Assembly (NCBI GenBank): GCA_015075305.1
Contig: JABTUS010000004.1
Location: 124,001-188,000 of the forward strand
DNA from: Opitutaceae bacterium
Lineage (GTDB): Bacteria; Verrucomicrobiota; Verrucomicrobiia; Opitutales; Opitutaceae
Length of the DNA stretch: 64,000 bases
Reading direction: 5' to 3'
Shown here piece by piece: positions 16,870 through 20,209 of the stretch; within the stretch, counting starts at the first letter, position 1; each line of letters starts with the position of its first letter. A program made the position numbers and the translations under genes. The notes beneath the pieces are model-generated. The model was not told the DNA's origin. It did not search any database and worked only from the letters and a program-made list of their open reading frames with translations.

Positions 16870-18033
16870 TTATCGCAGCAGGACCTGCCATTGGTTCTCG
16901 CGGGCGGATCGCGCGGCCTTGAGCGAGCCGAGGGCAACGTACCGCTTGTAGTCCTGGCCGGCGAGTTTGACCCGGGGCGATTCGTATCCGTCGTCGGCGA
17001 GTCTCTGCTGAAGGACCGTGTCGATTCCCTTCAACTGCGATCCACCACCCGTGATCACGATGTTCTGAAGCAGGGTCACCACGCTGTCCGAGGACGCGCG
17101 AGATATGAGCGTCACGAGGGCGGGGTAAATTCGATCGACAAGGCTGTTTGCGGAGCGTCCGAGAACGTCGCCGAGTTCCAGCACATGGGCCTTGCCGGCG
17201 AGAATGACGCGCACATCGATGGGTTTGCGAATCGGTCCGACATACGAGTGGGCTTCTTTGATTTCGCGAATCTTTGTGCGCGACAGCCCGTTGTTGGGAT
17301 AGGTGCGATTGAGCTCCGTCTCGATTATTGAGTCGATCGCATCGCCTGCGAAGCGAATTGAGATTTGGTCGTCCGCGTTGGGAAAGTACCCCTGCACCAG
17401 ACACAGGTCGCTTGTGCCGCCGCCGATGTCGACAAACAGGGAGTTGGTCACCGGATCGACATAGCCGGGCTGACCGACCCGGGACTCATCTCGGTAGCCG
17501 AGCGCTGAAAGGAACGGTTCGGGGATGAGAATGATTCGGTCGAACGCGCCCATGGCGGCCTGCCGGATGTTTTCGCGGGAGGACTCATCCGCGTTGGCCG
17601 GAACACCAATGACCGCTCGGATTTCCGCGAGTCCCGAGGGATCCGCGAGGCTGCGGATGTGACGCAGGAAATCACGCGCGGCGGCCATGTGTGCAACGAC
17701 GCCTTCAGCAAGGGGAGGAATGACGGTCGCGTGGAGTGCGCTCTGGATGGCCTGGTCTCCGAAAAGAATGCGCGAGTTTCCGGAGATGATGCCATCGACA
17801 ATGCCGTCCTTCACGTATCCGACGACACTCGGGACCACCTTGCTGACGGCGATGTCGCCGGAGCCCGCCGCGCAGGCGAGGACGCAGGACTTGTTGGTTC
17901 CCAGGTCGAAGCCAACCAGGATCACCTTTCGATCGGCGATTTTCGCGGCAACGGGCTGGGAGGGACTGGGCGTTGATGGCGCGCCCGTGTTTGCGGGCGA
18001 TGCGACTGGACGTTCGGATGTGATGGTTGGCAT
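16870..18033 (-). CDS. MamK-like bacterial actin
   Basis: A 387-residue actin-superfamily ATPase. The phosphate-1 loop is ILVGFDLGTNKSCVL (38-52), phosphate-2 is SLFVDIGGGTSDLCLV (about 200-215), and the adenosine motif is IVITGGGSQLKGI. The first 35 residues are Pro/Ser/Ala-rich and probably disordered. The sequence is closer to MamK, the filament that aligns magnetosomes, than to MreB: no MreC/MreD genes are near and the VIGVPANADESSRENIRQAA segment is MamK-like. The upstream gene at 18080-18577 is a short unknown protein that may be its partner. No magnetosome genes are visible, so the role is probably filament formation for another purpose. Confidence 0.82.
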   Translation of the reverse strand: MPTITSERPVASPANTGAPSTPSPSQPVAAKIADRKVILVGFDLGTNKSCVLACAAGSGDIAVSKVVPSVVGYVKDGIVDGIISGNSRILFGDQAIQSALHATVIPPLAEGVVAHMAAARDFLRHIRSLADPSGLAEIRAVIGVPANADESSRENIRQAAMGAFDRIILIPEPFLSALGYRDESRVGQPGYVDPVTNSLFVDIGGGTSDLCLVQGYFPNADDQISIRFAGDAIDSIIETELNRTYPNNGLSRTKIREIKEAHSYVGPIRKPIDVRVILAGKAHVLELGDVLGRSANSLVDRIYPALVTLISRASSDSVVTLLQNIVITGGGSQLKGIDTVLQQRLADDGYESPRVKLAGQDYKRYVALGSLKAARSARENQWQVLLR

Positions 18034-18079
18034 AGAAAGAGCGTGGTTGATGGATGAAAGAAGCGGCGGGTGCCGAGTG

Positions 18080-18577
18080 TCAGTTGACCCTTGCGGTGCG
18101 AGAGTAGGGGGATTCCTGAGTCAGCATTTCATCCAGCAGATCGGCGATCGCGGGCGCGCTCCGGCTGCGCGGACGCTGGCAGTTGGCGGGCGCTTCGGCA
18201 TCGGAGTTCGCCCCGCGGGGCCCCGGCTTGTGTAGTGGATTATTGGATGCGCGTGGCGTGGACCCGGCGTGGGAAGCGCCATGAGGCCGGTCCGCGAGAA
18301 AGCCCGCGGGAGATGACAGGTCTGTGAGAAGCCCGGCGAGAACGACCGCGTCGGCGACGCGTTCGCGCTCGCGCGTGAAAAGGCCGGACACGCCGGCCTC
18401 CGGCAGAAAGCCGGGACCGAATTGAATTCGGATTCGTTCGATGGCCTTTGAGAATTCGCCAGCCTGAATTGCCGATGCCTCGGTGGAGCAGCCCCGGGCT
18501 TCAAGCAGGCAGATCCTCCTGCAGAGCGAGGCAAGCGCCGCAACGGCGGATTCCCTATCCATTTCAAGTTGAGTCAT
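18080..18577 (-). CDS. Short protein encoded upstream of the MamK-like actin
   Basis: A 165-residue protein of unknown family. The first 80 residues look helical (RESAVAALASLCRRICLLEA; EFSKAIERIRIQFG; RERERVADAVVLAGLLTDL). The next 55 are rich in Pro, Ser, Ala and Arg and probably disordered. A final predicted helix APAIADLLDEMLTQE ends the chain. It is on the same strand and 46 bp upstream of the actin gene, which suggests one operon. A filament adaptor or anchor is a reasonable guess from position only. Confidence 0.6.
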   Translation of the reverse strand: MTQLEMDRESAVAALASLCRRICLLEARGCSTEASAIQAGEFSKAIERIRIQFGPGFLPEAGVSGLFTRERERVADAVVLAGLLTDLSSPAGFLADRPHGASHAGSTPRASNNPLHKPGPRGANSDAEAPANCQRPRSRSAPAIADLLDEMLTQESPYSRTARVN

Positions 18578-18750: not shown

Positions 18751-18781
18751 AAAAAAAAGCGCAACCCTCAACGGGTTGCGC
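18751..18781 (-). terminator. Intrinsic terminator after rpmA
   Basis: Read on the minus strand, GCGCAACCC and GGGTTGCGC form a perfect 9-bp stem with a 5-base loop, followed by eight U residues. It lies 29 bp after the rpmA stop and ends the rplU-rpmA transcript. Confidence 0.92.
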
Positions 18782-18809
18782 TGAAAAGAGGCATGGAGCC
18801 TGGTAGCGC

Positions 18810-19504: not shown

Positions 19505-20209
19505 TCAGGGTTTTCCGGGTGCAACAGGCGGTCGGCTGGCTGCTTCATTTTTGGCTTTGATTACCGCATTTTCAGCCAAGATGTCCATATTTTGCATTTC
19601 TATGTCCTGATAGTAGTGCTGGCGACGCTTGTAATCGGAGGGCAGGATATCGCGAACCAGCAGAGCCTTTTGGGCTTCGAGCTCGATTGCCTGTTGCTTG
19701 CGAAGATTGGCGAGGCGGGCGGCTTCGCGTTCGGCGGCCTCGCGGCTCTTGCGTTCGGCTTCCTGCAGCCTTGCGAGGGCCGCGGTCCTTTCCCGCTCAG
19801 CAATCTCCGCTTCCCTTTCGCGCTGTTCAGCCAACCGCCGGGCCTCTCCGGTGGCTGCTTCGCGCTCCCGAGCGAGGCGTTCGCGCATTGCCGCTGCTTC
19901 GCGGGCGGCTTCTTCAGCGGCGGTGCGCGCGGCGGCGGTGGCGGCCTGTGCGGCTTGGAGGCGGGCGAGTTCCTTTTCGGCGGCCTCGGCATCCTGTTGC
20001 GCCTTGAGGGCGGCCAGTCGGTGCGCCTCGGCCTCCGCACGGGTCCTGCGGGCGGCGTCCGCAGCAAGATCCGCGGCGGCTGTCTTCCTTGCGGCCGCGG
20101 CTCGCGCATCCCTGTCCCGTTGGACGCCCTCCCGGTACCACTTGTATCCGAAAAATGCGGCGACCAGGGCCAATGCGGCGATGATGGAGAGTGCGACGGA
20201 TTTGCTCAT
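19505..20209 (-). CDS. Membrane-anchored coiled-coil protein, TolA-like
   Basis: A 234-residue protein with an N-terminal membrane anchor (VALSIIAALALVAAFFGYKWY, residues 4-24), then a region of about 150 residues made almost only of Ala, Glu, Arg, Lys and Leu, with heptad spacing and repeated AEREREA-like units. It resembles the rod domain of TolA or other periplasmic coiled coils, but no TolA C-terminal domain is present. The C-terminal 50 residues (KALLVRDILPSDYKRRQHYY and onward) are different and more conserved in character. Low complexity makes homology claims unsafe. It may span the periplasm. Confidence 0.7.
   Translation of the reverse strand: MSKSVALSIIAALALVAAFFGYKWYREGVQRDRDARAAAARKTAAADLAADAARRTRAEAEAHRLAALKAQQDAEAAEKELARLQAAQAATAAARTAAEEAAREAAAMRERLAREREAATGEARRLAEQREREAEIAERERTAALARLQEAERKSREAAEREAARLANLRKQQAIELEAQKALLVRDILPSDYKRRQHYYQDIEMQNMDILAENAVIKAKNEAASRPPVAPGKP

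Follow-up and report, generated by a model that had tools for sequence, protein, structure and literature searches.

A conserved small protein encoded directly upstream of the actin BeeR in Opitutales: a putative filament adaptor

The filament of the bacterial actin MamK is served by small, partly disordered adaptors: MamJ and others. In the ParM/ParR system, an actin and a small adaptor are encoded in one unit, and the tail of ParR binds the end of the filament. BeeR is a further bacterial actin, whose function is reported as unknown (PMC11929497). It polymerizes in an ATP-dependent manner, forming in vitro a three-stranded tube ~80 Å wide; its hallmark is a disordered N-terminal extension that prevents the bundling of filaments, and it is called highly conserved in Verrucomicrobiota (PMC11929497). 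The main text of that paper makes no mention of a partner or neighboring gene of BeeR.

We describe a BeeR actin and a small protein encoded directly upstream of it, hereafter the partner, in a 64,000-nucleotide stretch of an Opitutaceae genome (the window). By model scores and in our tree, the nearest other actin group to BeeR is MamK. A small adaptor on an actin filament is the same general idea as MamK with MamJ. ParM/ParR is likewise an actin with a small adaptor in one unit. Here, in contrast, the partner gene lies upstream of the actin gene, housekeeping genes surround the two, and family-model scans found no DNA-binding family in the partner. The features of the locus are listed below with the basis for each.

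16870..18033, minus strand: BeeR family actin, 387 aa (NCBIfam NF053558, 8r2n match, tree)
17926..18033, minus strand: extension at the N-terminus of BeeR, residues 1-36 (the family-model match begins at residue 38)
18034..18079, minus strand: gap of 46 bases from partner stop to BeeR start (coordinates of both frames)
18080..18577, minus strand: partner protein, 165 aa (homologues directly upstream of BeeR in 60/69 distinct loci)
18116..18148, minus strand: C-terminal motif helix of the partner, IADLLDEMLTQ, residues 144-154 (AlphaFold2 helix; motif in 58/60 partners)
18149..18313, minus strand: variable linker of the partner, probably disordered, residues 89-143 (pLDDT ~60; poor conservation)
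18314..18571, minus strand: N-terminal three-helix domain of the partner, residues 3-88 (AlphaFold2, pLDDT 97-98 over most of it; profile matches between types)
18758..18782, minus strand: terminator-like hairpin in the interval between rpmA and the partner gene (10-pair stem plus T run)

The window actin and its surroundings

The window actin is a member of the BeeR family described in PMC11929497, which stands as a named group next to MamK; in this sense it is a protein of known kind. The BeeR model NF053558 scores 574.8 bits on it over residues 38-386, above the curated cut-off of 530, and the nearest solved chain is 8r2n, the BeeR of Opitutus terrae (E 6.9e-181). Membership in three other families was rejected: the NCBIfam MamK model gives 194.1 bits against a cut-off of 400, TIGR00904 (MreB) gives 55.2 against 365.75, and TIGR02350 (DnaK/Hsp70) gives 23.6 against 822.55. 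The Pfam HSP70 model matches part of the protein at 21.6 bits, just over its low cut-off of 20.6, which is what actin-fold proteins can give. In a tree of 60 actins (30 of 67 BeeR rows, 17 of 18 MamK-like rows, and 13 MreB rows), the protein falls among the BeeR rows, apart from the MamK-like and MreB proteins. Each group occupies one side of a branch, with a modest support of 71 for BeeR, 98 for the MamK-like group, and 100 for MreB; the tree tool warns of long branches between the MamK-like and MreB rows. The genome has its own MreB on another contig (C1:172641-173363). As a side observation, eight actins of the MamK-like group lie on contigs titled Poseidonia or Euryarchaeota archaeon (L068, L069, L072, L073, L074, L081, L083, and L084).

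A first-pass annotation of this DNA had placed a 387-residue actin with intact nucleotide motifs at 16870-18033; the frame is there, on the minus strand, and FDLGTN, IPEPF, DIGGGTSD, and TGGGS are all complete. It had also called the protein MamK-like rather than MreB-like. The protein is indeed nearer to MamK (194 versus 55-60 bits), but the cut-off that it passes is that of BeeR. A position within MreB or DnaK-like proteins, named beforehand as fatal to that annotation, is contradicted by the tree for MreB and by the cut-offs for both.

The window protein and the O. terrae BeeR are about 69% identical and have both the N-terminal extension and the nucleotide motifs in common. An extension of 30-50 residues is expected for BeeR, and the start of the family model places the window extension in this range. 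Of 12 numbered lateral-contact positions, the window residue is equal at 8; positions 252 and 380 are possibly misnumbered, as the O. terrae letter in the numbering used here differs there from the letter printed in PMC11929497.

The family scan of the surroundings took in nine proteins encoded nearby: SmpB, a GHMP kinase, L27, L21, an MFS transporter, an MPG glycosylase, a Gfo/Idh protein, a PLD protein, and one without a family. No magnetosome or shape gene is among them, as had been noted at first pass. The number of terminator-like hairpins is at chance level, with 2 sites in the scan and 2.2 in shuffled sequence. The BeeR tree has three subgroups, A, B, and C, of which A contains the proteins of the window and of O. 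terrae. The pair rplU-rpmA is common to the window locus and 8 further loci of type A. Many type B loci have response-regulator and pseudopilin-like genes, and many type C loci have rluA-like and HDOD-like genes, both named from reading the sequences. Deriving a function from shared neighbors was rejected, because the neighbor sets differ by BeeR type. Within the type B loci of the neighbor listing (L041, L043, L169, L171, L179-L181, L184-L186, and L211), a response-regulator-like gene lies a few hundred bases downstream of BeeR in 11 loci, and divergent pseudopilin-like genes lie upstream in 10. Upstream of rplU, at 19505-20209, the window encodes a 234-residue coiled-coil-like protein without a Pfam family, which was found in 13 loci.

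The partner protein

A 165-residue protein had been reported to precede the actin, and its frame lies at 18080-18577 on the minus strand, 46 bases away. An iterated profile search, seeded with the window partner and seven upstream genes, finds, in 61 of 70 loci, a homologue directly upstream of BeeR and in the same orientation. When L065, which repeats the genome of L175, is dropped, the count is 60 of 69 distinct loci; the lack of a conserved small neighbor, the other outcome named in advance as fatal, was thus not what we found. These loci span all three BeeR subgroups. The gap between the partner and the BeeR start codon measures -4 to 107 bases in 55 of the 61 loci and 227 in one, and five are without a determined value. 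Among the nine loci without a partner there, six have room for it (L033, L034, L035, L040, L044, and L045) and three end at a contig edge (L195, L208, and L209). The genome of L045 (G035) has a partner elsewhere; in those of L195 and L209, one lies at the edge of another contig.

The partner profile was built from 46 of the upstream proteins, so these members match it by construction. Since profile iteration can drift, we checked the family in three ways: against other frames, by matches from type to type, and in whole genomes. No other frame reached E<0.01 among 10,965 frames of the BeeR loci, and none of 13,211 control frames from MreB and MamK-like loci fell below E 0.4. The three partner types, aligned separately, match one another over the N-terminal domain with E 1.8e-10, 1.1e-16, and 2.6e-9; an unrelated helical neighbor, used as a control, gave E 0.55. 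The search of genomes across the phylum returned one match outside the order, in G389: at E 8e-6, it covers no more than model positions 89-161 and lies in a frame of 546 residues. We take this match as chance; BeeR was not found in that part of the phylum sample. The partner gene is a real gene and no chance frame. It stands directly upstream of BeeR also in G012 (L039), whose BeeR is identical to 8r2n over 386 residues.

Comparison with described families gave no assignment. On the window partner, DUF7706 (PF24806) reached 19.6 bits against a gathering value of 27, and it matched 1 of the 46 family members. A single member each was matched by NatB_MDM20 and by two NCBIfam models, and none of these names was accepted. 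Among the matches listed, no Pfam or NCBIfam model exceeds its curated cut-off. We found no publication on the partner in a literature search that took in only a minority of subscription journals and did not extend to preprints as a class. The protein is apparently undescribed, and it is the new part of this locus.

The partner had been described at first pass as having helical ends and a disordered middle, and the AlphaFold2 model, made from 46 sequences, agrees: helices are predicted at residues 3-27, 31-53, 60-88, and 144-154, with pLDDT near 60 between the two ends. Across the family, the linker differs greatly in both length and content. The C-terminal helix holds a motif, I/L/V-x-x-hydrophobic-I/L/V-D/E/N-x-hydrophobic. 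Of 60 partners, 58 carry it within their final 75 residues (shuffled mean 2.6, maximum 7), and 38 carry a stricter form (shuffled mean 0.8, maximum 4); the pattern was written after the sequences had been seen. L171 misses the exact pattern narrowly, and L210 has unread bases. Residue D149 is one of three columns conserved to at least 90% over 46 rows.

Fold searches were made with two models. Foldseek returned nothing at E<=0.001 for the window partner, and a fold search with a type B partner model (pLDDT 73) returned nothing at that threshold. In the VIA comparison, the best Z for the window partner was 7.4 (5zx1, an ENT domain), with rows for FliT, RomX, and ribosomal S20 close behind; this level is usual for helical bundles, and no fold was assigned. 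We make no claim that the predicted fold is new.

Distribution, co-inheritance, and matched types

BeeR is patchy in our samples. It is present in 17 of 387 genomes sampled across the phylum, all of them in the order of the window and 16 in its family, and in 59 of 276 genomes of the order, a number that includes G595, whose BeeR has lost its middle. BeeR was not found in G003, G004, and G006, three species of the genus to which the window belongs; they gave no more than an MreB-level match. Among the listed family f1 genomes from the sample of the order, the 31 that bear BeeR are larger (mean 4.9 Mb) than the 20 that do not (mean 3.7 Mb).

The partner follows this patchy distribution. The 276 genomes of the order comprise 56 with both genes, 3 with BeeR only, 4 with the partner only, and 213 with neither (Fisher p 9e-50, a statistic that ignores kinship). 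The BeeR-only genomes are G021, a one-contig genome, G036, and G488, where BeeR lies at a contig edge; the partner-only genomes are G341, G455, where the partner lies at a contig edge, G478, and G487. In nine genera whose listed genomes vary in BeeR, the partner follows BeeR in 31 of 32 genomes listed by name (197 and 196 without a match were left out). The exception is G341, in which BeeR was not detected and the partner gene has four stops. In another genome of that genus, G595, the partner is intact beside the BeeR that has lost its middle. The pattern in this genus looks as if the loss of BeeR comes first and the decay of the partner follows.

The types of the two proteins also match. In a partner tree of 57 rows (L065, L167, L177, and L191 were left out), B and C each fall on one side of a branch, with support 85 and 94; the labels together need 4 changes where the minimum is 3, in a tree with long branches and weak supports. 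One genome, G018, has two BeeR paralogues, of subgroups A and B, and beside each stands a partner of its own subgroup's type.

Genomes in which the two genes are separated bear on the parts of the partner. BeeR was not found in G478 and G487 at E<=1e-20; their partner, of 131 residues, has lost the motif and keeps the helical domain (E 1.6e-17 and 7.3e-19). Another genome of their family, G616, carries BeeR, and the partner directly upstream of it bears the motif. In G035, where BeeR and partner lie on different contigs, the partner motif is kept. To judge from these sequences, the motif appears to go with BeeR, and the partner domain can live without BeeR. G478 and G487 are of one genus, so the loss of the motif may be a single event.

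The reverse case is that of BeeR without a partner. The BeeRs closest to that of the window (G005, G007, and G008, 82-83% identity) are in genomes in which the partner was not found at E<=1, and some 370 bases separate rpmA from BeeR in them. These BeeRs are under purifying selection (dN/dS about 0.05-0.09), so the partner is dispensable for whatever keeps BeeR in these genomes. Eleven positions differ alike in the three proteins, and we considered them as a possible binding site for the partner; they are scattered, and no site is claimed.

The first-pass suggestion of a two-part cytoskeletal system, with a conserved small partner and outside a magnetosome cluster, is well supported. We consider it highly probable that BeeR and the partner are a functional pair.

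Possible roles of the partner

Within such a pair, the partner most likely works as a filament adaptor, and we give about even odds to an arrangement in which it docks on BeeR by its C-terminal helix and holds another object with its three-helix domain. We propose the tail as the docking end because the motif accompanies BeeR, whereas the domain can persist alone. In this mechanism, BeeR would polymerize with ATP into a stiff three-stranded tube, as others reported for the O. terrae protein and as we infer for that of the window. The amphipathic helix at residues 144-154 would dock on BeeR, the flexible linker would span the gap, and the N-terminal domain would hold a cargo, an anchor, or another copy of itself. 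The physical binding, the end that binds BeeR, and the object held are what we infer here. The broadest statement of the proposal commands slightly less of our confidence and falls a little below an even chance: the partner would found a new family of BeeR adaptors, with the helix docked on the tube, the domain tethering a cargo or anchor, BeeR acting as a positioning scaffold, and the domain having outlived filament and helix in some genomes.

The main rival to an adaptor is a regulator of assembly: the partner would nucleate, cap, sever, or sequester BeeR through the same C-terminal helix, and the N-terminal domain would dimerize or act as a steric cap. The upstream position, the co-inheritance, and the matched types speak for this reading as much as for an adaptor, a small protein with a short amphipathic tail would suit it equally, and BeeR persists without the partner, as it could without a tuning factor. 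However, the variation of the linker in length and content fits a tether better than a cap, and the helical domain kept without BeeR in G478 and G487 suggests a role apart from BeeR, and we regard a regulator as rather unlikely. An adaptor could also be oriented in reverse, with the N-terminal domain on BeeR and the C-terminal helix on a cargo or on an anchor such as the membrane. The N-terminal domain is the better conserved fold, and terminal amphipathic helices can also bind membranes or other proteins; yet the two BeeR-less genomes keep the domain and lose the motif, albeit in one genus only, and we think this orientation improbable.

The remaining reading denies a common function: the two genes would be neighbors by descent, and their co-occurrence would be kinship. 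Other genes are indeed common within subgroups (rplU-rpmA in A, other sets in B and C), and the counts over 276 genomes take no account of kinship. But the other neighbors change between types while the partner stays, and presence and absence agree inside nine genera. The unlinked partner of G035, the two matched pairs of G018, and the decayed partner of the BeeR-less G341 argue in the same direction, and this reading is already disfavored, with very little probability left to it.

With the partner docked as an adaptor or otherwise, BeeR, an actin with a structure but no function, gains a first handle on its role. A co-inherited, subtype-matched partner with a discrete conserved helix makes the function of BeeR testable: it indicates where to look for a cargo, and offers a marker of filaments in the cell and a peptide for structural work. 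The partner gene adjoins the very gene whose protein was solved, that of O. terrae, so existing constructs could serve, and genomes that have only BeeR, or only the partner domain, provide natural controls. If the adaptor proposal is true, the cargo of the BeeR scaffold can be found by pulling on the three-helix domain.

The types of BeeR differ at one lateral contact of the published tube. The C-terminal Leu385, a lateral contact according to PMC11929497, is conserved as Leu in 22 of 26 BeeRs of type A and in all 15 of type B. It is present in 0 of 26 of type C (L044-L046, L066, L188-L199, and L201-L210), 23 of which end before this position. On these alignments, the tube of type C BeeR may be built differently.
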